From Geodermatophilaceae bacterium (lineage in GTDB: Bacteria; Actinomycetota; Actinomycetes; Mycobacteriales; Geodermatophilaceae): 40,477 nt of DNA. Shown here piece by piece: positions 19,645 to 36,785 of the stretch. The stretch's first letter is position 1; each line of letters opens with the position of its first letter. The notes beneath the pieces are model-generated. The model did no database searches. It was not told the DNA's origin and saw only the letters and a list, made by a program, of their open reading frames with translations. Both the position numbers and the translations under genes were made by a program. The DNA lies in the NCBI GenBank assembly GCA_013812145.1, contig JACCTY010000047.1, positions 1 through 40,477 of the forward strand. Reading direction: 5' to 3'.

Positions 19645-22056
19645 TCACGACCGCAACCGTGTCATATCGGGGTCGAACAGCGGCTCGGCGGCGACCGTAG
19701 CCGGGATGCGCTCGTCGAAATATCCGATGTGGACAGACGTCCCGGGTTGGCTCAGTTCCACCGGCAGCCAGGCGTAGGCGATCCCTAGCCCGACGGTGTA
19801 GCCGTAGGCCGCGCTGGTGACGTAGCTGACGCAGCGATCCCCGTCGTACACCGGCTCCTTGCCGACGACAACCTTGGTCGGGTCGGCGATCGTCAGGCAG
19901 CAGAGGCGGGAGCGCAGTGGAGCGTCGAGCAACGCCGTACGGCCGAGGAAGTCGCCCTTGTCCATTCGGACGGCGAACCCGAGCCCGGCTTCGGCTGGAT
20001 AGTGGTCCCACGTCATGTCCGCGCCGAACGAGCGGTAGCCCTTCTCCAGCCGCAGACTCGTGAAAGCCCCGCGACCGCCGGCGAAGACGCCGAAGTCCGC
20101 ACCGGCCTCCCACAGGGTGTCCCAGAGCTTCAGTCCCATGTCGGCTGTGGTGTACAGCTCGTATCCGAGTTCGCCGACGTAGGACAGCCGCAGCGCGGTG
20201 GTTGGAACCATGCCGACGGCGAGCTGCCTGCCCCGGAAGTAGCCAAAGCCGAAGTCGTCGCGCGAAACCGCCCGGAGCAGGTCGCGGGCCTGCGGGCCCC
20301 AGACGCCGAGGCAGCACGTACCCGCGGTGATGTCCCGGGCCTCGACGCTGCGGTCGTCCGGGAGGTGGCGAAGGAACCAGTCGACGTCCAGAGCGCCGTT
20401 CCCGCCCACTTGATAGTGGTCCGCGCCGAGCCGGCTAACCGTCACGTCGCTGCGGATTCGGCCGCGCTCGTCCAACAGCAGGCAGTACGTGACCGACCCG
20501 ACGGACTTGTCGACGTTGCCGGTCGTCAACCGTTGCAGGTACGCCGTCGCACCGGGGCCGGTGATCTCGATCCGCTTCAAGGCGGTCATGTCGTAGAGCG
20601 CGACCCGCTCCCGGGTCGCCTGTGCCTCGGCGCCGACGATCGGCGACCAGTAGCGGGCAGCCCAGTCGTTCGGGGTGGCGATGTCGCGACCGTCGAGCAG
20701 GTGCTCGTTCGCGGCGTACCACTGCGGCCGCTCCCAGCCGCTCGCCTCGAGGAACACCGCGCCCAGATCGACCTGACGCGGGTTGAACGGGCTGGTGCGC
20801 AGCGGCCGCGGATGTTCCATCGGCTGCAGCGGGTGCAGTACGTCGTACACCTCGACGAAGTTCTGGCAGCCGCGCGCCAACACGTAGTCCGGCCCCAACT
20901 GGTGGGGCTCGAAGCGGTTCACGTCGCAGTCGTGCAGGTCGACCGACGGCGAGCCGGTGACTATCCACTCGGCGAGGGCGCGGCCGACACCGGCGGCGTG
21001 GGTGACCCAGACAGCCTCGGCGACCCAGAACCCGCGGACGTCCGGCGATTCTCCGATGAGCGGCATGCCGTCGGTGGTGAAGGAGAACAGACCGTTGATG
21101 CCCTCGCCCAGCTCGGCCTCACGCAACGACGGCATGAGCCGCAGCGATTCCTCCCATGCCGGCTCGAAGTCCGCAGGCGTGAATTCCCGGATGCTCGGCA
21201 TCACTGTGGCGTCTTCGCGCCGGGTGATCTCGGACGGGTCGACCGGCATCGGGTCGTGACCGTAGTAGCCGATCCCGACTTGGTCGCCGCGCTCGCGGTA
21301 GTACAGGTCATGGTCCTGGTGGCGCAAGATCGGCCTCGGGACGCCGGTGTCGATTCGATCCAGCTCCGGCACTGCAGTCGTCCACGCGTACTGGTGCGCC
21401 AGCGGTGTGAGCGGCAGCGTCATGCCGACCATGGCGGCGACCGATGGCCCCCAGATGCCGGCGCAGCAGACCACGATGTCCGCGCTGAACCCACCCTGCG
21501 TCGTTTCGACGCCACGGACCCGGCCGTCCTCGACCCGGACATCGAGGACCTCGCAGTCGCCGACGAAGCGCACGCCACGCCCTTCGGCTACCTTGGCCTG
21601 CGCGCTGACCGCAGTGACCGGGTTGGCCAGGCCGTCGGTCGGTGTGTGCAGGCCCCCAAGGATCCGCTCCGGGTCGAGCAGCGGGTGCAGCTTGGCGCAT
21701 TCCTCCGCCGAGACGACCCGGCTGCTGACCCCCCACGAGGTCAGCCAGCCGTGCCGGCGGTGCAGGTCGGCCAGCCGCTCCGGAGTCGTGGCCACCTCCA
21801 AGCCGCCGACCTGCAGGAAGCCCGGTTGTCCGTCGTACTCCAGCCCACAGAACTTCTCGACGGTGTAGCGAGCGAGTTCGGTCATCGTCTTCGACGGGTT
21901 GGCTTGGAAGACCAGACCGGGGGCGTGCGAACTCGATCCGCCGGTGGCGAACAGCGGACCCTGGTCGAGCACCGTGACGTCTGTCCAGCCCAGCGCCGAC
22001 ATCTCCTCGGCGACGGCAGCTCCAACCACGCCGGCCCCGATGACCACTACCTGCAT
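19645..22056 (-). CDS. dmg: Dimethylglycine oxidase (FAD + GcvT-like domains)
   Basis: An 803-residue bifunctional enzyme that oxidises N,N-dimethylglycine to sarcosine and hands the methylene group to tetrahydrofolate. The N-terminus is a DAO-type FAD domain ([17 protein letters not shown] at 3-19). His44 in [12 protein letters not shown] lies where dimethylglycine oxidase/dehydrogenase carries its covalently bound FAD histidine. The C-terminal half is a GcvT-like folate domain ([50 protein letters not shown]). Length is close to the ~830-residue Arthrobacter enzyme. AGGAGGT sits 6 nt before the ATG. It lies between the ABC binding protein and soxB, the expected pathway position. Confidence 0.94.
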
Positions 22057-22099
22057 TCGCCTACCTCCTGAGTTGCGTGTGGCGCGGCGGCGGGTGCTG

Positions 22100-23068
22100 C
22101 TAGCCGAGCCAGCCTTCGACCACGTCGGGGTTGTCCTCGACCCACTGCGCTGCGGCGTCCTCGGGGTCCATCCCGTCCTCGGCGATGTACTTCGCGACCA
22201 GGTTCTGATCGTCGTTGGTCCATTCGAAGTTGGCTACCAGGTCGTACGCCGGACTGCCGGACTCCGCGAAGTCGGTGGCCACGATCTTGTCCAGGATGTA
22301 CTCGGGGTAGTCGCACGCCACTGTCTCGGGGTCGGCGTCGCAGCCCTCTTCATACGGCGGCAGGTTGACCTTGACCAGCGCGATCTCGGACAGGAACCAC
22401 TGCGGGGCGTAGAAGTAGCCGAGCAGCGGTTCCTGGTTCTCCTCGGCCTGCCGGAACGCCTGGATCAGCGCCGGTTCGCTGCCGGCATAGACCACTGTGA
22501 AGTTCAGGCCGAGGTTCTGCACCAGCGCCTCGTCGTTCGTGACGAACGACGGGTCACCGTCGAGCAGCTGGCCCTTGTCGCCGGACTCCGAGGTCCTGAA
22601 CATCTCGGCGTACTTGTTGAGGTTCTCCCACTCGGTGATGTCGGGGTACTCCTCGACCATCCACGGCGGCAGGTACCAGCCGATCACGCCGACGTTGCCG
22701 TTCGGCCCGGCGTCCTGTGCGGTGCCCTGCTCCTCGATGTACTTCTGCTTGAGGTCGTCGTGGCCCCAGTTCTCGATGACTACATCCACTTCGCCGCTGC
22801 CGAAGCCCTGCCAGGCCACCTCCTCCTTGAGCGACTTGTACTCGATGTTGCAGCCGAGTTCGGTTGCCGCGACGTAGCCGACGACGTGCGCCGACGCCTC
22901 GTAACCGACCCAGGGGTTGATGGCGATGTTGAAGTCGCCGCATTCCGCGTCGCCCTCCTGCGCGGCCGGGGCCTCCTCGATATTGCCGCCGCCGCATGCG
23001 GCGACGACGAGACTGCCGGCCGCGATGAGTGCGGCGAGCCTGACAACTCGTGCTCTTCCTGTTCTCAC
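22100..23068 (-). CDS. Glycine betaine/choline ABC transporter substrate-binding lipoprotein
   Basis: A 322-residue OpuAC/ProX-type binding protein. The signal peptide ends in the lipobox LVVAAC with Cys25 lipidated. The mature part has the aromatic-rich pattern of betaine binders (NPWVGYEASAHVV, VVIENWGHDD, VIGWYLPPWMV, YFYAPQWFL), which forms the tryptophan/tyrosine cage for trimethylammonium groups. I cannot say whether it prefers betaine or choline. The GTG at 23068 is favoured because AAAGGAG lies 5-6 nt upstream; a longer frame from 23083 is possible. It follows the permease after a 75-nt gap with two short hairpins. Confidence 0.92.
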   Translation of the reverse strand: MRTGRARVVRLAALIAAGSLVVAACGGGNIEEAPAAQEGDAECGDFNIAINPWVGYEASAHVVGYVAATELGCNIEYKSLKEEVAWQGFGSGEVDVVIENWGHDDLKQKYIEEQGTAQDAGPNGNVGVIGWYLPPWMVEEYPDITEWENLNKYAEMFRTSESGDKGQLLDGDPSFVTNDEALVQNLGLNFTVVYAGSEPALIQAFRQAEENQEPLLGYFYAPQWFLSEIALVKVNLPPYEEGCDADPETVACDYPEYILDKIVATDFAESGSPAYDLVANFEWTNDDQNLVAKYIAEDGMDPEDAAAQWVEDNPDVVEGWLG

Positions 23069-23082
23069 TAGCTCTCCTTTCA

Positions 23083-23128
23083 CGGCCGGTACGCCGGCCG
23101 GCGGGTAGTCACCGACGCCCGAAGGGCG
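23083..23128 (-). other. Two short intercistronic hairpins before the binding-protein gene
   Basis: CGGCCGG (23083-23089) pairs with CCGGCCG (23094-23100) across TACG, and CGCCC (23116-23120) pairs with GGGCG (23124-23128) across GAA. Both lie in the gap between the permease and binding-protein genes. Such hairpins can stabilise the downstream message so the binding protein is made in excess. Confidence 0.45.
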
Positions 23129-23143
23129 GAGGCGTGCAGGTGT

Positions 23144-25156
23144 TCAGCGCCGCCCCTGACGGGCGGCGGCGTGCTGTGTTATCCGGTCGAGCATGATGCC
23201 GAGCGCGACTATCGCGATGCCGGCGGCGAGCCCCTTGCCGAACAGCTGAGCCTGGGAGAAGCCGCTGACCACGGTGTATCCGAGGGCGCCACCTCCCACG
23301 AGACCGCCGATGACGACCATCGACAGCACGTAGAGCAGACCCTGGTTGGAGGCCAGTACGAGAGCGCCGCGCGCCATCGGCAACTGCACCTTGGTGATGA
23401 TCTGGAACGTGCTCGAGCCGGCGGATCGAGCCGCCTCGACAGTTGTCGGCGCGACGCCCCGGATTCCGTCTGCGACGAGCTTGATCGCAGCCGGGCCGGC
23501 ATAGACGATCGCGGCGACGATGGCGGTGAAGCGGCTGGGCCCGAACAGCGCCAGCGCCGGTACGAGGTAGACGAACGGGGGGATCGTCTGCCCCGCGTCG
23601 AGCAGCGGTCGGAGCGCGGTATCGGCCCGCTTGCTGCGTCCCATCCACACGCCGAAAACGACAGCGAGGAACATCACGAGAACGGTCGCGACAAGGGTCA
23701 TCCCCAGGGTGACCATCGAGTCCTGCCAGAGACCGACGCCGAAAATGACGGCCAGGCAGACCGCGGTCGTCAACGCAGGGCGCCAGCCGCCGATCAGGAA
23801 CGCCACGGCGAGGAGCGCCGCAGCCACCAGCCACCAGGGCGAGTCGGCAAGAAGGGACTGGAACGGGTTGAGCAGCCCGTAGGTGAACCCGTCCTTGATC
23901 GCCCCGGTCAGCTGGCCGAAAGTGTCGGTGAACCACTCGGTCGCGGACCCGACCGCATCGGCCAGCGGCCGACCCAGGTCCGGCAGCGTGTCGGGGTCAG
24001 CGGCCCAGAGATAGCTGCGCGACAGGTACACAGCGACCGCCGCCACGACACCACCGCCGATGAGGGCTGCCCGCCGACGACGCGGATCGTGCACCGCGGT
24101 CCGGCGTTCGGCCTCGGCCCGTTCGCTGGCTGCCGTCGTCGTGCGGTCGAGCATGATCGCGATGATCACGATGCACAGTCCGCTCACGAACGCGGTGCCG
24201 ATGTCGAGGGTCTGCAGTGCTTCGATCACCGGCTCGCCGAGCCCCGGCCCGTCGATCAGCGCGGCGATGGTCGCGATCGACAGCGCGGCCATCATCGTCT
24301 GGTTGACCCCGACGATGATCGTCTGCTTGGCCATCGGCAGCTGCACCTTGCGCAGCAGCTGTGCCCGGGTCGACCCCATCGAGGTGGTCGCCTCGATCGT
24401 GGACGGCGCGACCGTGCGCAGACCGTGCGCGGTGATGCGGACGACCGGCGGCAGTGCGTAGATCAATGTGGCGACGACAGCGGCGGACGGCCCGATGCTG
24501 AAGAGCAGGACCAGCGGAAGCAGGTAGACAAAGGACGGCATCGTCTGCATCACGTCGAGCACGGGTGTGACGACCGTCGTGACGGTGCGACTGCGGGCCA
24601 TCGCGATCGCCAGCGGGATCCCGACCGCCACGCTGATCAGTACGGCGGTGAACGTGATGATGAGAAGGTCGATGCTCTCGGTCCAGAACCCGAACACACC
24701 GAAGGCCAGGAAGCTGACCACGACGAGGATGGTGGAGCGCACACCGGCCAGGGCATAGGCGATCCAGGCGGCAACGGCGAGCACCCCGAGCCACCCGATC
24801 TCCGGCACCGGCCGCGGGAAGGCGGGCTGACTGAGCAGATTCTGGGCTGCGGTGACCAGCGCTTCCAGTCCGTCGCTGGCACCGCCGACGACGGTTTCCA
24901 AAAAGAAGTTGCTGTCGCGGGCGGCATCGAAGGCATCCCGCAGATCGTTGAGGCTGCGCTGGAAGTCGGTGAGGGTGGCCCGCCCGAGCGGCAGGGTCGC
25001 CGTGCCCTTGAACAGTGCCCAGCCGAGCGCCCAGATCCCGAGGATCGCTGCCAGCAACACACCGGTACGCCGTACCGGATCGCGCTGCTGCTGTTGGGCT
25101 GTGGGTGGCGGTTCGGGGGCGGCCGGCGCGGCCGGCCGCTCCGCAACGGCGGTCAC
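23144..25156 (-). CDS. Double-length betaine/choline ABC permease
   Basis: At 670 residues this is roughly two ProW/OpuAB permeases in one chain. Each half has a BPD_transp_1 domain with its own EAA loop: STIEATTSMGSTRAQLL then KVQLPMA (residues 252-276), and TTVEAARSAGSSTFQII then KVQLPMA (571-595). Each is preceded by a matching TMPSFVYLLPL or TIPPFVYLVPA segment (about 205-215 and 524-534). A charged linker (340-362) separates the halves. It would form the whole membrane channel, with two ATPase chains docking at the two EAA loops. The GTG at 25156 overlaps the stop of a 60-codon frame upstream by 4 nt. Confidence 0.92.
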   Translation of the reverse strand: MTAVAERPAAPAAPEPPPTAQQQQRDPVRRTGVLLAAILGIWALGWALFKGTATLPLGRATLTDFQRSLNDLRDAFDAARDSNFFLETVVGGASDGLEALVTAAQNLLSQPAFPRPVPEIGWLGVLAVAAWIAYALAGVRSTILVVVSFLAFGVFGFWTESIDLLIITFTAVLISVAVGIPLAIAMARSRTVTTVVTPVLDVMQTMPSFVYLLPLVLLFSIGPSAAVVATLIYALPPVVRITAHGLRTVAPSTIEATTSMGSTRAQLLRKVQLPMAKQTIIVGVNQTMMAALSIATIAALIDGPGLGEPVIEALQTLDIGTAFVSGLCIVIIAIMLDRTTTAASERAEAERRTAVHDPRRRRAALIGGGVVAAVAVYLSRSYLWAADPDTLPDLGRPLADAVGSATEWFTDTFGQLTGAIKDGFTYGLLNPFQSLLADSPWWLVAAALLAVAFLIGGWRPALTTAVCLAVIFGVGLWQDSMVTLGMTLVATVLVMFLAVVFGVWMGRSKRADTALRPLLDAGQTIPPFVYLVPALALFGPSRFTAIVAAIVYAGPAAIKLVADGIRGVAPTTVEAARSAGSSTFQIITKVQLPMARGALVLASNQGLLYVLSMVVIGGLVGGGALGYTVVSGFSQAQLFGKGLAAGIAIVALGIMLDRITQHAAARQGRR

Positions 25157-25331
25157 GGGTTCGCCTCCCCAGGTCGGCTTTGCCCCCCGGGCGCGTGGAC
25201 ACGCCGCTCGACACGCCGAAGGAATCTGCGCTCAGGGGGCAACGTCACGACCCCGGAGGAGGTTGCCCCCTGGGCACGCGGACACGCCCGGTGAAACCGC
25301 CGCACAAGGGCAATGTCGAGATGGTCCGCGG

Positions 25332-25335
<4 letters not shown>
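25153..25335 (-). CDS. Candidate 60-aa coupled ORF between ATPase and permease (doubtful)
   Basis: The 175-nt gap between the ATPase and permease genes is read through by one open frame of 60 codons. Its ATG overlaps the ATPase stop (ATGA) and its TGA overlaps the permease GTG (GTGA), a perfect translational bridge. The product is basic and of no known family (start [20 protein letters not shown]). Against it, the DNA is largely repeat sequence and stop-free frames this long are not rare at high GC. It may simply let ribosomes carry over to the permease. Confidence 0.35.
25180..25289. repeat. Direct and inverted GC-rich repeats inside the ABC operon
   Basis: Two direct copies of a 27-nt element, at 25180-25206 and 25263-25289, match at 23 of 27 positions and begin TTGCCCCC. 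Between them AGGGGGCAAC (25234-25243) is an inverted copy of the start, forming a 10-bp perfect stem with GTTGCCCCCT (25262-25271) across 18 nt. It may be a REP-like element or mRNA-processing structure. Confidence 0.6.
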
Positions 25336-26437
<1,102 letters not shown>

Positions 26438-26441
<4 letters not shown>

Positions 26442-28129
26442 GCATGTCCTCCAGTCACGACGGGAACCGGTGGCTCGAGCGGGCTGCCGTCGCGGTAGGA
26501 GTACCAGGCGGCGTGCGACGGTGCGAGCGGCGTGTTGCCGAGGATCAGATCCGCGGACTTCTCGGCCAGCATCATCACCGGCGCATAGATGTTGCCGTTG
26601 GTGATATGGGGCATTGAGGAGGCGTCGACGACACGCAGGCCGTCGGTTCCGTGCACTTGCATGGTCGCCGGGTCGAGGACGGACAGGTCGTCGACTCCCA
26701 TCCGCGCCGTGCCCGACGGGTGCAGCGCCGTCTCGGCATCGGCGGCGACCCAGTCCAGGATCTGCTGATCGGTTTGTACGCCGGGACCTGGGGACAGTTC
26801 GCCGCCGTTGTAAGGCTCGAACGCGGGCTGGTTGAGGATGTCGCGGGCCGCGCGTACGCACTCAACCCACTCCTGCCGGTCCTGCGCGGTGGACAGGTAG
26901 TTGAACCGCAGCGCCGGATGCTCCCGCGGGTCGGTGGACTTGATCGCCACACTGCCGCGGGCGTCTGAGTACATCGGACCGATGTGCACCTGGTATCCGT
27001 GGCCCTTGGTCGGGGAGCTGCCGTCGTACCGGATCGCGATCGGCAGGAAATGGAACATCAGGTTGGGGTAGTCGACGGAGTCGTTGCTGCGGGCGAAGCC
27101 GCCGCCCTCGAAGTGGTTCGTCGCGCCGAGTCCCCGGCGGAGGAACAACCACTCGGCGCCGACCCGTGGCCTGTTCCGCCAGCGCAGCCCAGGCGCGATC
27201 GAGACCGGAAGCTTGGAGGCGTACTGGATGTAGACCTCGAGGTGATCCTGTAGCGCTTCACCCACTCCTACAACGCTGGCGATGGGGTCAACTCCCCGGG
27301 CAGTTAGCAGGTCAGGGTTGCCGATTCCGGAGAGTTGGAGGAGTTGGGGGGAGTTGATCGCTCCGCCGCAGAGGATGACCTCGGCGGCGTCGGCGCTTCG
27401 GCGTACCCGGCCGGTCTTGAGATAGTCGACGCCGACCGCGCGGTTTCCGACGAAACGAACCTTCGTCGCCAACGCGAGGGTCTCGACGGTGAGATTCTTC
27501 CGGTGCCGGACCGGGTGCAGGTAGGCGCGGGAGGCGCTCAGCCTCCGTCCATTGTGGATGTTGCGGTCGAAGCGGCCGAAACCCTCCTGCCGGTAGCCGT
27601 TGACGTCGTCGGTCAGCGGATACCCGGCCTGTACGGCGGCGTCGAAGAACGCTTGAAACAACGGGTTCGTGGCCGGACCGCGCTCCAGGATCAGCGGCCC
27701 GTCGCCGCCGCGCCACTCATCCGCGCCGGCCAGGCAGTTCTCCATCCGCTTGAAGTACGGAAGGCAGTGCGCGTAGTCCCACTGGCTCATGCCGTTCTCG
27801 CGTGCCCAGCGCTCGTAGTCCATCGGGTTGCCCCGCTGGAAGATCATCCCGTTGATGCTGCTGCTGCCACCGAGCACCTTGCCGCGGGCGTGCGAGATCC
27901 GCCGGCCGTTCATGTGCGGCTCGGGCTCCGAGACGTAACGCCAGTCATAGAGCCGGCTGCCGATCGGAAACGGCAGTGCGGCCGGCATGTGGATGAACGG
28001 GTCCCAGCTCCAGTCCGGGCGGCCCGCCTCCAGCACCAGGACGGTAGTCGACGGGTCGGCGCTGAGCCGGTTCGCGAGTACGCAGCCCGCCGAGCCGCCG
28101 CCGACGATGACGAAGTCGTATTTTTTCAC
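26438..28129 (-). CDS. betA: Choline dehydrogenase, GMC family
   Basis: A 563-residue GMC flavoprotein. The FAD motif is [20 protein letters not shown] (residues 4-23), followed by [18 protein letters not shown], the GMC signature 1, and [16 protein letters not shown], signature 2. The active-site end carries [10 protein letters not shown] (His) and [19 protein letters not shown] (His/Asn pair region), which is close to BetA. It oxidises choline to betaine aldehyde and can often continue to betaine. The GTG at 28129 overlaps the betB stop (GTGA). It sits between the aldehyde dehydrogenase and the importer. Confidence 0.92.
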
Positions 28130-29595
28130 GAGCCGAACCAGTGCTGCGGGGCCGGCCGGATGTTGTGCCAGATGTGCTTGGTCTCCCGGTACTCGTCGAG
28201 GCCCGCCCGGCCGAGTTCGCGGCCGATGCCGGACTGCTTGTAGCCGCCCCACTCGGCTTGCGGTACATACGGGTGGTAGTCGTTGATCCAGACCGTTCCC
28301 ATCCGCAGCCGGGCGGCGACCCGCTCGGCCCGGCCGGCGTTCGACGTCCAGACCGCGCCGGCCAGTCCGAAGCGGCTGTCGTTGGCGATCCGGACCGCGT
28401 CGTCCTCGTCGGTGAACGTCTCCACGGTGAGCACCGGTCCGAAGGACTCCTCCTGAACGACGGCCATCTCGCTGGTGCAGTCGTCCAGGATGGTCGGTAG
28501 GTAGTAGTACCCCTCGGCGAGCCCGGGGTCATCCGGCTGGCCGCCGCCGCAGCGAAGCCGCGCGCCGGCAGCGACCCCGGCGCCGACGTACTCCTCGATC
28601 TTGTCGCGGTGGGCGGCGGAGATGAGCGGGCCGGTCTCGGCAGCCGGATCGAACGGGCCGCCCAGGCGGATCTTCTCCGCTCGCGCGACGAGTTCGTCGA
28701 CGAACTGGTCGTGGATCTCCTCGGCAACGACGAGTCGGGCACCGGCGGAGCAGACCTGACCGGAGTGCAAGAAGACGGCGGTCAACGCCAGGTCGAGCGC
28801 GGCGTCCAGTTCAGCGTCGGCGAACACGATGTTCGGGTTCTTGCCGCCTAGCTCGAGCGCCACCTTCTTGACTGTGCCGGCGGCCGCGGCCATCACGGCG
28901 CGACCGGTGGCCAGGCCGCCGGTGAAGGACACCAGGTCGACGTCGGGGTGCTCGGCCAGCGGCGCGGCGACCTCTGACCCGGCGCCGAGGACCAGGTTGG
29001 CGACACCGGCCGGCAGGCCTACGTCAGCGAGTATCCGCATCAGCAGTATCGCCGTGGACGGCGTCAACTCACTCGGCTTGAGCACGAAGGTGCAACCGGC
29101 AGCCAGCGCCGGCGCGACCTTCCAGGCGACCTGCAGCAGCGGATAGTTCCAGGGGGTGATGAGCCCACACACCCCTACCGGCTCGTGTCCGACCCGGCTG
29201 ACGATGTCAGGTCTGCCGGTGTCCACAACACGGCCGGCGTCCTCGCCCGCCGTACCGGCGTAGTAGCGGAGGACCGACACGACGTCGTCCACGTCGTATT
29301 CGCTCTCCACGTACCGCTTACCGGTGTCCAGCGACTCGGCCCTGGCGACCGCCGGCTTGTCCCGGACCAGCCGGTCGGCGACACGGTGGAGCAGCGCACC
29401 CCGCTCGAGGGCGGACGTCGTAGGCCATTCGCCGTGGTCGAAGGCGGCCCGAGCAGCGGCGATGGCAAGGCCGGTGTCTTCAGCTGTTGCCTCGTCCAGC
29501 GTCGCGACAAGGGTGCCGTCGGCCGGGCAACGGATCTCACGTCGGCCACCCGCGCGCGCCTGAACCCATCGTCCACCGACGAAGAGTTCAGGCAC
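28126..29595 (-). CDS. betB: Betaine aldehyde dehydrogenase
   Basis: A 489-residue NAD(P)+-dependent aldehyde dehydrogenase. Catalytic residues are in place: Asn150 in TPWNYPLLQ, Lys173 in VLKPSE, Glu248 in LELGGKNPN and Cys282 in SGQVCSAG. The C-terminal [19 protein letters not shown] segment is similar to GbsA-type betaine aldehyde dehydrogenases. It oxidises betaine aldehyde to glycine betaine. The GTG at 29595 is chosen because GGAGG is just upstream; an upstream GTG-opened frame extends to 29655 but would cover the promoter. It is the first gene of the ~15-kb leftward run and follows an operator region. Confidence 0.92.
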
Positions 29596-29630: not shown

Positions 29631-29680
29631 ATGCTAGGCGGATGTTGCGTGTCACGCAACCTATGCTGTTCTACGCAACA
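29631..29680 (-). promoter_or_regulatory. betB operon promoter with IclR-type operator
   Basis: On the minus strand TAGCAT (29631-29636) fits a -10 box, leaving a leader of about 30 nt with GGAGG before the betB GTG. Seven nt upstream lies the inverted repeat GTTGCGTG-T-CACGCAAC (29644-29660), followed by an outer half-site ACGCAACA (29673-29680). A further inverted pair, CGTTGCG (29711-29717) and CGCAACG (29736-29742), lies beyond. The layout is repeated upstream of the BCCT gene. Confidence 0.7.
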
Positions 29681-29748
29681 GACCCTACCGCGCCGGGCGT
29701 CGCGCAAGAGCGTTGCGATGACGATGGTGGGCCAACGCAACGGCAATC

Positions 29749-29788
29749 CGGCCGGGCCGCCCGGCGATGCTCACGGGCGGCCCGGCCG
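29749..29788 (-). terminator. Strong terminator hairpin after the BCCT gene
   Basis: A perfect 15-bp GC-rich stem (29749-29763 with 29774-29788) and 10-nt loop start 3 nt after the BCCT stop codon. There is no T-tract. It would insulate the betB promoter from readthrough. Confidence 0.8.
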
Positions 29789-29791
29789 TGT

Positions 29792-31372
29792 CTATCGGCT
29801 CGCCTCGCCGCGACCGCGCTCTCGCGCCCGCTCGGTGTCGACGAGGGCTTCATGCGCCCTCTGCAGGACAGGTTCCCGCGGCTGCATCATCGGGTCGTTC
29901 TTGATGTCCTTGGCCAACGACACGCATAGGGCGACCATGACCAGGGCGAACGGGAACGCGGCCAGGATCGTCAGATTCTGCAGGCCCAACAGGGCCTCGT
30001 CGCCACCGAGCAGCAGCATCAACGCGGCCACCGCGCCCATGAGAACACCCCAGAAGATGACAACCACGCGGGTCGGGTGCTGGGTGCCCCGCTGCGACAG
30101 CGTGCCCATGACCATGGAGGCAGCATCGGCGCCGGAGACGAAGAAGATCGCCACCAGGACCATCACCAGAATGCTGGTGACGATGGCCACCGGATACTGG
30201 TCCAGAAGCCCGAACAGCTGCGCTTCCACACCGTCCTGCCCGGCGATGTCTGTGCCAGTGGACTGCTCGTCGATCGCGGCGCCGCCGATGATCGCGAACC
30301 AGACCAGGCTGACAGTGCTCGGTACGGCAATGACGCCGATCACGAACTGCCGGATGGTGCGGCCGCGGCTGATCCGGGCCAGGAACATGCCGACGAACGG
30401 CGTCCACGAGACCCACCAGGCCCAGTAGAAGATCGTCCAGCTGGCCAGCCAGTCGGCTGTCGCCGCGTCCCCGCTGGCAGCGGTCCGTGCGAACATCCCG
30501 GGTAGTTCGCTGATGTAGGAGCCGACCGCAGTGGGCAGCAAGTTCAGGATCAGCACGGTCGGGCCGATGACAAAGACGAAGAGCGCCAGCGTGATGGCCA
30601 GGACCATATTCGTGTTGGCCAGCCACTGGATGCCCTTGGCCACGCCGGAGACAGCGGAGGCGACGAACGCGATCGTCAGCACGACAATGATCAACACGAG
30701 CACGACCGTGCCGGCGTCGACGCCGCCGGTCACGTTCAAGCCTGCACCGATCTTCAGGGCACCGAGCCCGAGCGAGGCGGCCGAGCCGAACAGCGTCGCG
30801 AACAGCGCGAGGAGGATGTCGATGGCGCGTCCTCCGGCGCCGTTGACCCGGCGCTCGCCGAGCAGCGGCGCAAAGGCCGAGCTGATCAGCTGACGGCGGC
30901 CGACCCAGTAGGTGCTGTAGGCGATCGCGAGCCCGACGACGGCATACATGGCCCACGGGTGCAACGTCCAGTGGAACAGTGTGGTCGCCATGGCCGCCGA
31001 GGTGGGATCGATGTCTCCGCTGCCGGGCGGCGGCGCGACGAAATGGCTCAGCGGTTCGACCACGCCGTAGAACATCAGGCCGATGCCCATACCGGCGCTG
31101 AACATCATCGCGATCCAGGACACCGTCCGGAACTCCGGCTTCTCTTCGTCCTGGCCGAGCGGGATCCGACCGTAGCGGCTGAACGCCAACCAGAGCGAGA
31201 ACAGGACGAAGCCGGTCGCTGCGAGGACGAACAGCCAGCCGAACTTGGCGACCACCCAGTCGAGCGCGCCGCCGACCACCGTCCCCAGGGATTCGGTCCC
31301 GAACGAGCCCCAGAGCACCAGCGCGACGGCGAGGACGGCGACCGTCCCGAGGATGACCTGGTCGGTCGACAC
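29792..31372 (-). CDS. betT: BCCT-family choline/betaine transporter; N-terminal tail interrupted by in-frame TAG
   Basis: A 526-residue BCCT secondary transporter with about 12 helices. Family motifs are GMGIGLMFYGVVEPLSHF (94-111), HWTLHPWAMYAVVGLAIAYS, TNMVLAITLALF and FYWAWWVSWTPFVGMFLA with its Trp-rich substrate site. It imports choline or betaine with Na+ or H+. The GTG at 31372 has no ribosome site. Directly before it is an in-frame TAG (31373-31375), preceded by 27 codons from an ATG at 31456 encoding a BCCT-like tail ending PPTETEQPG. A -10-like TAGGAT at 31469-31474 places transcription start just before that ATG. So either the tail was separated by a nonsense mutation with reinitiation at GTG, or the TAG is a sequence error. 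Confidence 0.88.
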   Translation of the reverse strand: MSTDQVILGTVAVLAVALVLWGSFGTESLGTVVGGALDWVVAKFGWLFVLAATGFVLFSLWLAFSRYGRIPLGQDEEKPEFRTVSWIAMMFSAGMGIGLMFYGVVEPLSHFVAPPPGSGDIDPTSAAMATTLFHWTLHPWAMYAVVGLAIAYSTYWVGRRQLISSAFAPLLGERRVNGAGGRAIDILLALFATLFGSAASLGLGALKIGAGLNVTGGVDAGTVVLVLIIVVLTIAFVASAVSGVAKGIQWLANTNMVLAITLALFVFVIGPTVLILNLLPTAVGSYISELPGMFARTAASGDAATADWLASWTIFYWAWWVSWTPFVGMFLARISRGRTIRQFVIGVIAVPSTVSLVWFAIIGGAAIDEQSTGTDIAGQDGVEAQLFGLLDQYPVAIVTSILVMVLVAIFFVSGADAASMVMGTLSQRGTQHPTRVVVIFWGVLMGAVAALMLLLGGDEALLGLQNLTILAAFPFALVMVALCVSLAKDIKNDPMMQPREPVLQRAHEALVDTERARERGRGEASR

Positions 31373-31456
31373 CTAGCCGGGCTGCTCGGTCTCCGTTGGT
31401 GGCACTCCGTCCTTGCCGAGGTCAGTTCGATCGCGGGGGGTTTCTCTGGTGGACAT
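31373..31456 (-). pseudogene. N-terminal tail of the BCCT transporter ending in an in-frame TAG
   Basis: ATG at 31456 opens a 27-codon frame that stops at TAG (31373-31375), immediately and in phase before the transporter's GTG. The translation begins MSTRETPRDRTDLGK and ends PPTETEQPG, which reads like the hydrophilic cytoplasmic tail common in actinobacterial BCCT proteins. It probably belongs to betT; whether it is a leader peptide, a lost exon-like tail or an artefact is unresolved. Confidence 0.55.
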
Positions 31457-31468
31457 CGCTCCGGCCCT

Positions 31469-31519
31469 ATCCTAGGGTGGGTGTTGCGTGACGCAGAACA
31501 CACTTCTTGATGCGCAACA
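31469..31519 (-). promoter_or_regulatory. betT promoter with IclR-type operator
   Basis: The minus strand has TAGGAT (31469-31474) as a -10 candidate. Eight nt upstream is GTTGCGTGACGCAGAAC (31483-31499), an imperfect inverted repeat, and an outer half-site GCGCAACA (31512-31519) lies at the same 29-nt offset as in the betB promoter. The operator would cover the -35, so repression is likely; IclR activation is possible. Confidence 0.68.
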
Positions 31520-31598
31520 CTGCTCACACAGGCGGATCAGCGTCAAGGTCTACGGCAGTGTCGAGATCCCGGTCCGGTAACGATTCACCAAGGGGTCG

Positions 31599-32387
31599 TC
31601 AGGCATCGCGCCAGCCGAGCCGCTCGGACACCTGCTGCGCGGCTGCGGTGAGCAGCGGAAGCAATTCGGCCACTCGCGCCTCATTCAGGCGGAAGGTGGG
31701 ACCGGAGACGCTCATCGACGCACGCACGTCGCCACTGGCGTTGCGGATCGGCGCTGCGACCGCCGTCAGACCCAGCTCGAGTTCGTCGACGGCGACGGCG
31801 TACCCCCGCTCGCGGACGTCGGCGACAGCAGCCCGCAGCCGCTTGACCGAGCTGATCGTCGCCGTGGTGAAGGATCGCAGCTTCCCGGCGGTCGCCGAGA
31901 TCTGCGCGTCCGGGAGCCCGCTCAGCAGCACCTTGCCGTTGGATGTCGCGTGCAGCGGGATCCGCTGCCCTACCCAGTTGTGCGACTGCAACGCCGATGA
32001 CCCCGCCACCTGGTCGACGTAGAGCGCCGCACCATCGGACAGCACGGTGAGGTTGACGGTCTCACCGGTTTGTGCGGCCAGCTGCCGGGTGATCGCTCGG
32101 CTCTCCTGCACCAGGTCGAGCCGGGCAGTGGTGGCTCCGGCCAGCCGCAGAATCCCCACGCCGAGGCAGTACTTTCCACGCTCGGAGTTCTGCTCGACCA
32201 GGCTACGGTTCTCCAGCGCGGCGATGAGCCGGAACGCCGTCGACTTGTGGACGCCGAGCTCCGCGGCGATCTCGGTGACGCCGGCTTCTCCTGTCCGGGC
32301 GAGGATCTCCAGGACGGTGACCGCCCGGTCGACGGATTGGACCGTGGTCAGTACCCCATCCACTCGCGTCGGCGTGGTGTTGCCCAT
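31599..32387 (-). CDS. IclR-family regulator of the betaine genes (inferred)
   Basis: A 262-residue IclR protein. The winged HTH covers about residues 14-75 (SVDRAVTVLEILARTGEAGV; HKSTAFRLIAALENRSLVEQ). The C-terminal effector domain contains ETVNLTVLSDGAALYVDQV, HNWVGQRIPLHATSNGKVLL and ERGYAVAVDELELGLTAVAAP. It lies directly upstream of betT on the same strand, and matching operator-like repeats occur before betT, before betB and over its own start codon. It probably senses choline, betaine or a catabolite; that is inference from position. Confidence 0.9.
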   Translation of the reverse strand: MGNTTPTRVDGVLTTVQSVDRAVTVLEILARTGEAGVTEIAAELGVHKSTAFRLIAALENRSLVEQNSERGKYCLGVGILRLAGATTARLDLVQESRAITRQLAAQTGETVNLTVLSDGAALYVDQVAGSSALQSHNWVGQRIPLHATSNGKVLLSGLPDAQISATAGKLRSFTTATISSVKRLRAAVADVRERGYAVAVDELELGLTAVAAPIRNASGDVRASMSVSGPTFRLNEARVAELLPLLTAAAQQVSERLGWRDA

Positions 32388-32443: not shown

Positions 32444-32956
32444 TCACCGGCGGCGCGAATCCACTGCCAACGGAGGCAGTCGCTTCGTCAGTGTCACCTC
32501 CTCCTCGGCATAGCCGAGGCCGGCGTACATCGCCCGGGCGGCCGCGTTGCCCGCGCCGGTCTCCAACGACAGACTCGCCAGACCGCGCCGGCGGGCCCAG
32601 TCCTCGGCGGCGGCCATCAACGTCGCAGCGACACCGGCTCGTCGGTGAGGTGGCGCCACGACGAGCTCGCCCACGTAACCCTGCCGCTCCCCGGTGAAGT
32701 GCAAGCGCTCCGTCACGCTCACGAATCCGAGAACTGTGGGGCATGGCTCAGCCAGCGATGCTGTCGGAAGAGCGACCAGAACTGCCGCGTCGTTCGTGCG
32801 TGCAGCGGTCAGCGCGTCGTCCACCCAGCCGGCGACGGCCGTCCGCTGCCGGTCGGCCGACCGCCACGCCGGCATCCCGGCGGTGAGTTCCGGCGCCAAG
32901 AGACGGATCTGTTCATGGTCGCTGTCCTGCGCCGCTCGAATGCTGAAGGGGGTCAT
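32444..32956 (-). CDS. GNAT-family N-acetyltransferase
   Basis: A 170-residue GNAT protein with the acetyl-CoA loop VGELVVAPPHRRAGVAATLM (about residues 94-113; core R-R-A-G-V-A) and the later LSLETGAGNAAARAMYAGLGY motif typical of the fold. The acceptor substrate is not predictable. The gene lies 24 nt after the MttB-family gene and 56 nt before iclR on the same strand, so it could be cotranscribed with them. A role in betaine metabolism is not evident. Confidence 0.88.
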   Translation of the reverse strand: MTPFSIRAAQDSDHEQIRLLAPELTAGMPAWRSADRQRTAVAGWVDDALTAARTNDAAVLVALPTASLAEPCPTVLGFVSVTERLHFTGERQGYVGELVVAPPHRRAGVAATLMAAAEDWARRRGLASLSLETGAGNAAARAMYAGLGYAEEEVTLTKRLPPLAVDSRRR

Positions 32957-32980: not shown

Positions 32981-34420
32981 TCAGTCGCCGAGCTCGGCGC
33001 GCCGGCGTACGACGTACGCCTCCAACTCCGCGCGGATGGCGTTGTCGAGCGGTGGCTGCTCGTAGGAGTCCAATGTGGACTGATAGATCTTGGTTGCCCG
33101 CGCGTTCGCGTCGGCGCCGCCGCCGCGCATCCAGCGCTCGTAGTTCTCCGACGAGGACAGCAGCGGCCGGTAGAAGCAGGTCCGGAACCGCTCCATCGTG
33201 TGCTCCGCGCCCAGGAAGTGCCCGCCGTGGCCGACCTCCTGGTGCGCTCCGAACGCGAGTGACTCCTCGGAGATCTCCAGCGGGGTGAACTCCACCCGCA
33301 TCATCTGCAGCAACTCGATGTCGACGATGAACTTCTCATAGCCGGCGACCAGCCCGCCCTCGAGCCACCCGGCGCTGTGCATCACCCAGTTGACCCCGGC
33401 GAGGAACGTCGGCAGCAACGTCATCAATGCCTCGTAGCCGCCCTGCGCATCGGCCACCTGGCTGGAAGTCATCGCACCGCCGGAGCGGAACGGCAACCCG
33501 AAGTGCCGGGCGATCTGGCCCGTGCACAGCAGCCCGACCGCGGATTCCGGCGTACCGAAGCACGGCGAGCCGGACTGCATGTCGATGTTGGACAGGAACG
33601 AGCCGAAGATCACCGGCGATCCGGGCCGGATGAGCTGCGACAGCGCGATGCCGCTCAACGCCTCGGCCATCTGCTGCACCAAAGCGGACGGGATCGTCAC
33701 CGGCGACATCGCGCCCATGAGCAGGAACGGCGTAAGTACGACTGCCTGGTTCGCCGCGGAGTACTCGAACTGCGCCTCCAGCATCCGGTCGTCCCAGCGC
33801 AGCGGCGAGTTGCAGTTGATCAGGCTGATCGTCACCGGCGCCTGCTCGATGACGTCGCGGCCGCCGAACAGGATCGAACTCATCTCGATGGTGTCCCGCG
33901 CGTTGACCCCGGAGACGACGTTGCCCATGTACGCCTTGTCGGTCAGCGTCTGCAGCGCGTAGGTCATGTCCAGATGCCGGGAGTCCAGCGGCGCGTCGTT
34001 GGGCTCGCAGATCACCCCGCCGGCGGAGTCGAGCACGCTGAAGGACTGCGACAGCTTGGTGAAGTTCCGGTAGTCCTCCATGGTGGCGTCCCGGCGTACC
34101 TCGCCCTGTCGCACGAACGGCGGGCCGTAGACCGCGCCGAAGGACATCATGTCGCCGCCGATGTGCAGCGAGTTGGCCGGATTGCGGGCCGCGACGTCGA
34201 ACTCGTGGGGCGCCTTGGCGACCTGCGCCAGCACGAAGTCCGGGTCCAGGAAGACGGTGTTCTCCTCGACTCGCTGACCTGCCTGCCGGAACAGCTCCAA
34301 CGCCCGGTCGGACATGAACTCGACGCCGATGTCGGTGAGGATTCGCCGCCAGCCGCCGTCCAGGACCGCCATCGCGTCCTCGGACAGGATCTCGTACCGC
34401 GGCATGGTGTTGCGGAACAT
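32981..34420 (-). CDS. mtgB: Pyrrolysine-free MttB-family methyltransferase, MtgB-like (glycine betaine:corrinoid)
   Basis: A 479-residue protein of the trimethylamine methyltransferase superfamily. Family features are the N-terminal LDGGWRRILTDIGVEFMSD, DSAGGVICEPNDAP (131-144), SPLRWDDRMLEA (205-216) and the conserved FRSGGAMTSSQVADAQGGYE (311-330). There is no in-frame TAG, so it is not a pyrrolysine enzyme. Such MttB relatives transfer one methyl group from a quaternary amine to a cognate corrinoid protein; MtgB uses glycine betaine and makes dimethylglycine. Carnitine, proline betaine or gamma-butyrobetaine are alternatives. The start has AGGAGG 5 nt upstream. It is divergent from its corrinoid protein and MtgA-like partner, and the downstream operon consumes dimethylglycine. 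Confidence 0.85.
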   Translation of the reverse strand: MFRNTMPRYEILSEDAMAVLDGGWRRILTDIGVEFMSDRALELFRQAGQRVEENTVFLDPDFVLAQVAKAPHEFDVAARNPANSLHIGGDMMSFGAVYGPPFVRQGEVRRDATMEDYRNFTKLSQSFSVLDSAGGVICEPNDAPLDSRHLDMTYALQTLTDKAYMGNVVSGVNARDTIEMSSILFGGRDVIEQAPVTISLINCNSPLRWDDRMLEAQFEYSAANQAVVLTPFLLMGAMSPVTIPSALVQQMAEALSGIALSQLIRPGSPVIFGSFLSNIDMQSGSPCFGTPESAVGLLCTGQIARHFGLPFRSGGAMTSSQVADAQGGYEALMTLLPTFLAGVNWVMHSAGWLEGGLVAGYEKFIVDIELLQMMRVEFTPLEISEESLAFGAHQEVGHGGHFLGAEHTMERFRTCFYRPLLSSSENYERWMRGGGADANARATKIYQSTLDSYEQPPLDNAIRAELEAYVVRRRAELGD

Positions 34421-34459
34421 GTAGTCCTCCTTGACGCGATTACGTGCCTGACCTCATAG

Positions 34460-34479
34460 TGTGGGACAGCAGTTCCACA
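34460..34479. promoter_or_regulatory. IclR-type operator between mtgB and the second iclR gene
   Basis: TGTGGGACAGCAGTTCCACA has 8-bp arms with one mismatch and a 4-nt spacer. It sits in the 86-nt divergent gap, 40 nt before the mtgB ATG and 27 nt before the iclR ATG, so one regulator could control both directions. The sequence differs from the betB/betT operator. Confidence 0.65.
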
Positions 34480-34506
34480 TAGTGGCTTAACCCGGGCGGG
34501 AGGGCA

Positions 34507-35255
34507 ATGACAGGGACGCAGGCGATCGATCGGGCGGCCGAGCTGGTGTCCCTCGTCGTACACGCCCAGCACCCCTCCAGTTTCGCGGATCTCCTGACCC
34601 GAACCGGCCTGGCCAAGTCAACCGGATCACGGTTGCTGCAGGCGTTGGAGCGCCATCAACTCCTGGAACGGGACAGCGGCGGAGCCTTTCGTCCCGGTGC
34701 ACTCTTCGCCCTGTACGCCGCCCGGCACGAGCCGATCATCGAACTCGAGCGGATCGCCGAGCCGTTGCTGCAGCGGATCGGCGAGGTCACCGGAGAGACC
34801 GTCAACTTGGCGATCCCTCGCGGGCAGAGCGTCGTGCAGATCGCTCAGGTCGACTCGCGATTCATGCTCGGGACGAGCAACTGGGTGGGCGTCGACGTAC
34901 CGGCCCACTGCTCCGCCCTCGGCAAGGTTTTCTACGCGCACGGCCGGATCCCGCTTCCAGCCGGGTTGTTGGAGCGCCGCACGCCACGCACCCTGACCTC
35001 CGGTCAGCTTCGGCGGGAGTTGCGGACGGTTCTGGAGCGCGGCTACGCCACCACCCGCGGCGAGTTGGAGCCGGGGCTCGACGCGGTCGCCGTACCGGTC
35101 CATGGCCATGACGGCGCTGTCGTGGCCGCGCTCAGCGTCTCCGGCCCCGACGTACGCCTGGCCGACCAACTCGATGCCATCGGAACGCTGCTCGTCAAGG
35201 AAATCGCCACTCTGTCCGCCTTGCTCGGACACCACCCCGGAAGGGAAGGGGCGGC

Positions 35256-35259
<4 letters not shown>
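34507..35259 (+). CDS. IclR-family regulator of the corrinoid methyltransferase genes (inferred)
   Basis: A 250-residue IclR protein. The N-terminal winged HTH runs from about residue 6 to 65 (QAIDRAAELVSLVVHAQHPS; LAKSTGSRLLQALERHQLLE). The effector domain has ETVNLAIPRGQSVVQIAQVD, SNWVGVDVPAHCSALGKVFY and ERGYATTRGELEPGLDAVAV. GGGAGGG precedes the ATG. It is divergent from mtgB over an inverted repeat, and its stop overlaps the start of the corrinoid-protein gene (ATGA), so it is made in the same message as the system it probably controls. Confidence 0.9.
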
Positions 35260-35921
<662 letters not shown>

Positions 35922-35930
35922 GGATTCGGG

Positions 35931-36785
35931 ATGCACACCACATTGAGCTCGGCCACCCGCGAGGTAGTCATCGGCCACGACCAGCCGTTCTGCCTGATCG
36001 GCGAGCGGATCAATCCGACCGGTCGGAAGATCTTCCAGGAACAGCTTCGCGCCGGTGACCTCTCGGCGATCGAGAAGGACGTGGCCGCGCAGGTCGCCGG
36101 TGGGGCCAGCGTGCTCGACGTCAACATGGGCGTGCCGCTGACCGACGAGCCGGCGCTGCTGGCCAACGCGATCAAGCTGGTGCAGAGCCTCACCGATCTC
36201 CCGATCTGCATCGACTCATCCGTCGTAGAGGCGCTGGAGGCGGGGCTGGCGGCCTATGACGGCCGGGCGCTGGTGAACTCGGTGACCGCCGAGGACGAGC
36301 GGATGGAGCTGATCCTGCCGCTGGTGAAGCGGTACGACGCCGCAGTCATCGCGCTGCCCAACGACGAGTTCGAGATCCCGATGGAAGCCGACCGCCGGCT
36401 CGAACTGGTCCGGCACATCGTGGACGTGGCCACCGGGAAGTACGGCATGGCGGTAGAGGACATCGTGATCGATCCGCTGGCCATGCCGATCGGGGCGGAC
36501 ACGACAGTGGTCGCGACGACACTGGAGACGATCTCGCGGATCCGCTCCGAGTTCGGGCTCAACATGTGCCTCGGCGCGTCCAACGTCTCGTTCGGAATGC
36601 CGGGGCGGCACACGCTCGGGGCGACCTTCCTGCCGATGGCGATGTCCCATGGGCTGACGAGCGCGATCATGGACACCCGCTCAGAGCACATCGTCGAAGC
36701 GGTCAAAGCGGCGGACCTGTTGCTGGGCAACGACGAGTGGGGCATGAACTGGATCGCCGCCCACCGGGCCAAACAGGCAGTATGA
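35931..36785 (+). CDS. mtgA: Methylcorrinoid:tetrahydrofolate methyltransferase, MtgA/AcsE-like
   Basis: A 284-residue pterin-binding TIM-barrel enzyme of the MeTr/AcsE group. Motifs are IGERINPTGRK (23-33), GASVLDVNMG (58-67), ICIDSSV, ALVNSVTAE, a DPLAMPIG segment and CLGASNVSFGMPGR near the C-terminus. In the MtgABC system it moves the methyl group from methyl-Co(III) corrinoid protein to tetrahydrofolate, giving 5-methyl-THF. It begins 10 nt after the corrinoid gene and its stop overlaps the next start (ATGA). The direction (away from betaine) is inferred from the neighbours. Confidence 0.9.
   Translation: MHTTLSSATREVVIGHDQPFCLIGERINPTGRKIFQEQLRAGDLSAIEKDVAAQVAGGASVLDVNMGVPLTDEPALLANAIKLVQSLTDLPICIDSSVVEALEAGLAAYDGRALVNSVTAEDERMELILPLVKRYDAAVIALPNDEFEIPMEADRRLELVRHIVDVATGKYGMAVEDIVIDPLAMPIGADTTVVATTLETISRIRSEFGLNMCLGASNVSFGMPGRHTLGATFLPMAMSHGLTSAIMDTRSEHIVEAVKAADLLLGNDEWGMNWIAAHRAKQAV

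Follow-up and report, generated by a model that had tools for sequence, protein, structure and literature searches.

To our knowledge, the characterised proteins that control choline and betaine genes (BetI, GbsR and GbdR) belong to families other than IclR. BetI is a member of the TetR family and GbdR of the AraC family; both govern choline/betaine uptake, oxidation or demethylation, with families and operators unrelated to those of the regulator considered here, IclR1. The MarR-type GbsR/OpuAR, as outlined in the literature, likewise controls choline/betaine genes and is unrelated to IclR1 in protein family and operators. Within the IclR family itself, PcaU and PobR of Acinetobacter are activators. 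TTGCG/CGCAA arms bound by an IclR protein, as proposed below, are quoted for TphR of Comamonas (TTTTTGCGCATAGCGCAAAAA; Suvorova & Gelfand 2021, PMC8222616), but in the form cited there they make up a single palindrome with other spacing at terephthalate genes. The same article defines a GTT-11-AAC subgroup of IclR regulators with tandem sites 18-22 nt apart, which are thought to take a tetramer; its main text holds no choline/betaine target (PMC8222616). A literature search of partial coverage returned no IclR regulator of choline/betaine genes.

Here we describe a 38-bp element that precedes both betB and betT in a stretch of 40,477 nucleotides (the window) from a Geodermatophilaceae bacterium (GCA_013812145.1, contig JACCTY010000047.1, positions 1-40,477, forward strand). 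Judged by sequence comparison, each element would be an operator of the adjacent IclR1, acting as repressor of choline/betaine genes, a reading to which we assign a probability of roughly 0.85, with repression as such somewhat less probable. For actinobacterial choline/betaine catabolism, the finding defines an operator, names a candidate regulator gene and predicts a regulon.

The locus and its two tandem elements

The first part of the locus is devoted to choline uptake and oxidation (Table 1). The top match of betB is TIGR01804 (615 bits, under the cut-off of 668.6). The betT frame reaches upstream to an ATG at 31456 with a normal-looking N-terminus and is interrupted at codon 28 by an in-frame TAG (31373-31375, minus strand) immediately preceding the GTG at 31372; the frame of the relative L080 runs through this position, and the TAG is either a real mutation or an assembly error. 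The second part of the locus (32981-36785), with mtgB-like, B12-binding and pterin-binding methyltransferase genes, looks like an actinobacterial cluster for the corrinoid route of betaine demethylation that has been reported in marine bacteria (PMC12478193). The mtgB/iclR2 pair is kept across Nocardioidaceae.

IclR1 (262 aa) shows the make-up of the IclR family, proteins of about 250 aa with an N-terminal HTH_IclR domain (PF09339, 57.3 bits) and a C-terminal IclR_C domain (PF01614, 154.5 bits), both matches exceeding the Pfam cut-off, and IclR relatives with solved structures are detectable by sequence. It falls into none of the named NCBIfam subfamilies tested (BhcR, KdgR, PcaR/PobR, IclR, AllR), all of which stay below cut-off, the top match being BhcR with 196 bits against a cut-off of 350.

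Table 1. Coordinates of genes and putative regulatory sites in the window
Feature	Position	Strand	Remark
ABC transporter (betaine/choline type) plus dimethylglycine-dehydrogenase-like (DMGDH) gene	19645-26861	minus	
DMGDH-like gene	19645-22056	minus	
ABC transporter binding protein	22100-23083	minus	
ABC transporter permease	23144-25156	minus	
ABC transporter ATPase	within 25332-26861	minus	Pfam sets frame
betA, choline dehydrogenase	26438-28129	minus	downstream of betB, same direction; TIGR01810 above cut-off
betB, betaine-aldehyde-dehydrogenase-like	28126-29595	minus	start GTG 29595, GGAGG just upstream
betB operator TGTTGCGTAGAACAGCATAGGTTGCGTGACACGCAACA	29643-29680	minus (reads 29680 to 29643)	matrix score 40.2, window excluded from training
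betB operator, proximal palindrome P2	29644-29660		perfect
betB operator, distal palindrome P1	29663-29679		degenerate inner arm
betT-like, BCCT transporter	29792-31372	minus	profile matches
betT operator TGTTGCGCATCAAGAAGTGTGTTCTGCGTCACGCAACA	31482-31519	minus (reads 31519 to 31482)	matrix score 43.6, window excluded from training
betT operator, P2	31483-31499		degenerate inner arm
betT operator, P1	31502-31518		degenerate inner arm
CAGTGT, -10-like for betT	31517-31522		18 nt from TTGACG; overlaps first operator box
TTGACG, probable betT -35	31541-31546	minus	present in 5/5 related loci (window, L011, L012, L013, L080)
IclR1, IclR-family regulator	31599-32387	minus	Pfam HTH_IclR and IclR_C; presumed binder of both operators
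GNAT-like gene	32444-32956	minus	named from sequence
mtgB-like, MttB superfamily	32981-34420	minus	
IclR2 operator AAGCCACTATGTGGAACTGCTGTCCCACACTATGAGGTCA	34449-34488	minus	between mtgB and iclR2; conserved tandem, GTTCCA boxes
IclR2, second IclR-family regulator	34507-35259	plus	32% identity to IclR1, other recognition helix
B12-binding protein and pterin-binding methyltransferase genes		plus	alongside IclR2

Both promoters carry the 38-bp element with its GTTGCG and CGCAAC boxes. The shared arrangement that a sequence-only reading of the window had pointed out is present: GTTGCGTG stands at 29644 and 31483 on the plus strand and is followed 29-30 nt further, in keeping with the offset claimed, by CGCAACA, which delimits two elements of 36-37 bp. 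For the pattern GTTGCGTG-N15-30-CGCAAC, the window contains two occurrences where 0.01 are expected, and none of 100 shuffles gave two. With exact spacing and zero mismatches (GTTGCG-N23-ACGCAAC), these are the only two places in the 3.08-Mb source assembly, in which, as in the other genome-wide scans, patterns were used; looser matches there are background (51 vs 38-43 in the reversed control).

The consensus of 156 aligned sites consists of two palindromes, GTTGCGcat..cGCAAC and gTTGCGcgATaCGCAAC, whose centres lie 19 nt apart and whose outer arms are strong and inner arms weaker. When 53 single perfect palindromes were taken as the start, 37 of them had a second GTTGC at -19 and three had it at -20. 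The element is a pair of tandem GTTGCG-N5-CGCAAC palindromes with partly degenerate inner arms, and the 29-nt offset is thus the distance from outer arm to outer arm (19 + 10). The earlier description as a GTTGCGTG-containing inverted repeat plus a CGCAACA half-site was therefore right about the boxes and is dropped as to the structure; at betT, moreover, the supposed inverted repeat is imperfect (GTTGCGTGACGCAGAAC), and the P1 palindromes of both window operators match poorly in the inner arm. As first seen, a palindrome with a further box outside, the element resembled the operators of PcaU and PobR. Such a three-box operator, in which a lone direct half-site accompanies the palindrome, was rejected because, across the 156 sites, a conserved arm pairs with the outer box, which hence belongs to a second palindrome as its outer arm; the two systems also differ in half-site sequence, in regulon and probably in sign.

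In its anatomy, the sequence places the operator in the known GTT-11-AAC tandem type of IclR proteins, as the main text of PMC8222616 describes it. The shared traits are a 17-bp GTT-N11-AAC palindrome (GTTGCGTGACACGCAAC at betB, GTTCTGCGTCACGCAAC at betT), a tandem partner whose centre lies 19, sometimes 20, nt away and so within the range of the class, and a position near promoters of regulator-adjacent genes. Compared to the published GTTYCRY-W3-RYGRAAC, a consensus that averages many proteins and need not hold for each, the element agrees at the outer GTT/AAC and at the CG positions, whereas the fourth base is G instead of C/T, with C as its partner (half-site GTTGCG vs GTTYCR), and A/T does not occupy every base of the centre.

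Two further places in the window hold related boxes. A GTTGCG...CGCAAC inverted pair between betT and betB (29711-29742), previously listed as a third pair, has the wrong spacing for an operator and is absent from the matrix matches. Just ahead of the DMGDH-like gene, a half-site CACGCAAC is present at 22072-22079 (minus strand); GTTGCGTG at 22072 was rejected as a full operator, the window retaining half a site only. In the close relatives L012, L013 and L151 paired boxes precede this gene.

Occurrence of the element in related genomes

Using the window's proteins, we mapped 80 loci with IclR1 relatives of 63-86% identity (Geodermatophilaceae, Nocardioidaceae, Brevibacterium and others); because these were picked by IclR similarity and many are from Nocardioides, locus counts are not independent events. 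Upstream of betB, betT, iclR and DMGDH-like genes the offset from TTGCG to CGCAA was 29 (80 times), 30 (6 times) or 10 (54 times), with almost nothing at other values, and the control regions, taken upstream of betA, mtgB and the permease and binding-protein genes, contained one TTGCG/CGCAA pair. A matrix built from 71 sites, with the window left out, gives the two window operators the scores listed in Table 1 and the next-highest place in the window -5.6. Over 1.45 Mb (the 80 loci plus the window) it found 339 matches above 14, compared to 2 in reversed sequence. These comprise 174 distinct sites, which lie upstream of betB (44), DMGDH-like genes (43), iclR1 (40), betT (10) and opu/ABC transporter genes (2), the remaining 35 lying mostly at MTHFR-like genes or at DMGDH-like genes truncated where the fetched stretch ends; no assigned operator site falls inside a mapped coding gene. 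Since the promoters are unrelated, shared flank ancestry does not account for the shared element.

Across 115 genomes of the window's family, the strict element pattern gave 13 matches (0 in the reversed control), ten of them no more than about 170 nt away from an IclR1-type gene. The other three comprise one by a 48% IclR homologue and a DMGDH-like gene, one before a DMGDH-like gene and one orphan. From other genera, 25 IclR homologues of about 52-56% identity were retrieved, and each of them has the element nearby, usually on both sides. In the examples examined, their neighbours are a GbcA-like Rieske oxygenase, with its top NCBIfam match, under the cut-off, to glycine betaine monooxygenase, and a small protein that by sequence resembles ferredoxin, after which comes a pyridine-nucleotide reductase. 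Ten Nocardioidaceae genomes contributed 19 distinct strict sites and no control matches; by coordinates 17 are at iclR1/betB, and the other two precede a BCCT transporter gene and a serine dehydratase gene, respectively. The genome scan proposed along with the motif thus finds it anything but randomly scattered, strict matches in whole genomes adjoining almost exclusively iclR1, bet, DMGDH and other betaine-demethylation, BCCT or serine-dehydratase genes.

That the two window sites are a chance similarity, or copies of a repeated non-regulatory element such as a small mobile palindrome, could be suspected from their palindromic nature and from a mild over-representation of GTTGCGTG in the window. 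Given the expected number stated above, and a geometry that recurs in dozens of species ahead of several promoters unrelated to one another, where flanks and linkers have diverged, without excess in reversed controls, we regard this explanation as practically negligible.

Two groups of sites lie at genes beyond uptake and demethylation. In two genomes (L073:556-593 and L171:1500-1537) the operator stands ahead of L-serine dehydratase genes, consistent with a flow from betaine via glycine and serine to pyruvate. In L069 (430-467), L040 (785-822) and similar Nocardioidaceae it lies over the start codon of an MTHFR-like gene (ATGCGCAAC, protein beginning MRN), so that folate C1 handling joins the predicted regulon.

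Assignment of the element to IclR1

The sequence-only reading had proposed a single regulator covering some 37 bp, probably the IclR encoded nearby, and comparative data support this proposal. Across families, the element accompanies IclR1 orthologues as well as more distant homologues, whose identity falls to about 48-56%, and it stands ahead of iclR1 itself in 40 loci, which makes the adjacent IclR1 very probably the regulator. The window and its closest relatives carry no such site upstream of iclR1, so autoregulation is not universal.

The locus also encodes IclR2, which is conserved in most of the loci and might for this reason be considered, like any other regulator, as the protein that binds the betB and betT sites. 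We consider this highly improbable. The divergent intergenic region between mtgB and iclR2 holds a different tandem operator, with GTTCCA boxes, and an IclR2 matrix scores 24.3 at this site and at most -9.5 elsewhere in the window. The two matrices do not cross-match: that of IclR1 never exceeds 0 in 47 mtgB/iclR2 intergenic regions, and that of IclR2 never exceeds -9 in 123 regions upstream of bet and DMGDH genes. The recognition helices differ too (VHKSTAFRL in one, LAKSTGSRL in the other). IclR2 is thus disfavoured by a motif of its own, and the GTTGCG element, found before iclR1 and beside distant IclR1 homologues, is attributed to IclR1. Two paralogous IclR proteins with two operators in one locus offer a natural test of how the recognition helix sets half-site preference.

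Promoter geometry and sign of regulation

All promoter elements given here are consensus matches. TTGAC[GCA] occurs upstream of the operator in 41 of 44 betB, 39 of 43 DMGDH and 9 of 10 betT cases, compared to 1 of 121 control stretches, and at many betB sites a CATTCT/TATCCT-like -10 box follows after 16-18 nt. With the -35 element upstream, and often a -10-like box between, the operator would in most of these promoters lie on or after the transcription start, which suits a repressor. From this arrangement, IclR1 likely represses betT and betB. At the window's betB, TTGAC is absent upstream, so that the promoter and the repressor geometry are uncertain there.

Alternatively, the same IclR could use the same operator to activate betT and betB, or act as a dual regulator, in the manner of PobR and PcaU. 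TAGCAT (29631-29636) and TAGGAT (31469-31474) do lie 7-8 nt downstream of the elements, as had been noted, and as -10 boxes would make the element span roughly -20 to -57, a placement that is activator-like and overlaps the -35; TAnnnT shortly past the operator in 35 of 40 iclR1 promoters, in which the operator is upstream of the -10, points the same way. Activators are also among the IclR proteins covered in the main text of PMC8222616. However, TAGnAT was rejected as a shared -10, since it comes after no more than 5 of the 139 assigned operators, the two of the window included; it may still serve as such at the window's betB. Considering further the upstream TTGAC elements described above and the MTHFR-like genes, where the operator touches the start codon or includes it, we judge activation to be unlikely.

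Under repression by IclR1, the proposed mechanism would run as follows. A tetramer would occupy the two palindromes as two dimers side by side on one helix face, the 19 nt between the centres amounting to about two helix turns. Sitting at the transcription start or immediately past it, and at betT overlapping the -10/+1 region, IclR1 would block the genes for choline/betaine uptake and oxidation until a pathway metabolite, most likely glycine betaine or dimethylglycine, releases it. These two are likelier signals than choline because betaine-demethylating genes are accompanied by the element even where no bet genes were seen alongside, as in Brevibacterium and other Geodermatophilaceae.

Taken together, these parts may describe a previously undescribed IclR regulator-operator module that, in several families of actinobacteria, serves as the master switch for breaking down glycine betaine; as a whole, this joint reading appears to us about evenly balanced between right and wrong. 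It would have the IclR protein family and the 38-bp tandem operator kept while the enzymes beneath change: Nocardioidaceae and the window's genus have bet and DMGDH-like genes next to a corrinoid (mtgB-type) cluster, other Geodermatophilaceae a Rieske betaine-monooxygenase-like gene accompanied by ferredoxin and reductase. The regulator would sense glycine betaine or dimethylglycine and repress from the transcription start. One operator before chemically different betaine-demethylating enzymes presents a clean case of a conserved regulator with a replaced enzyme.

A side observation concerns the iclR1 promoters of Nocardioides (L018, L020, L024 and others), in which the operator is followed by TAGTGT or TAGTCT and then, about 6-8 nt on, by ATG. 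Since the start codon lies only a few nucleotides past the -10, the iclR1 transcripts of these loci are possibly leaderless.
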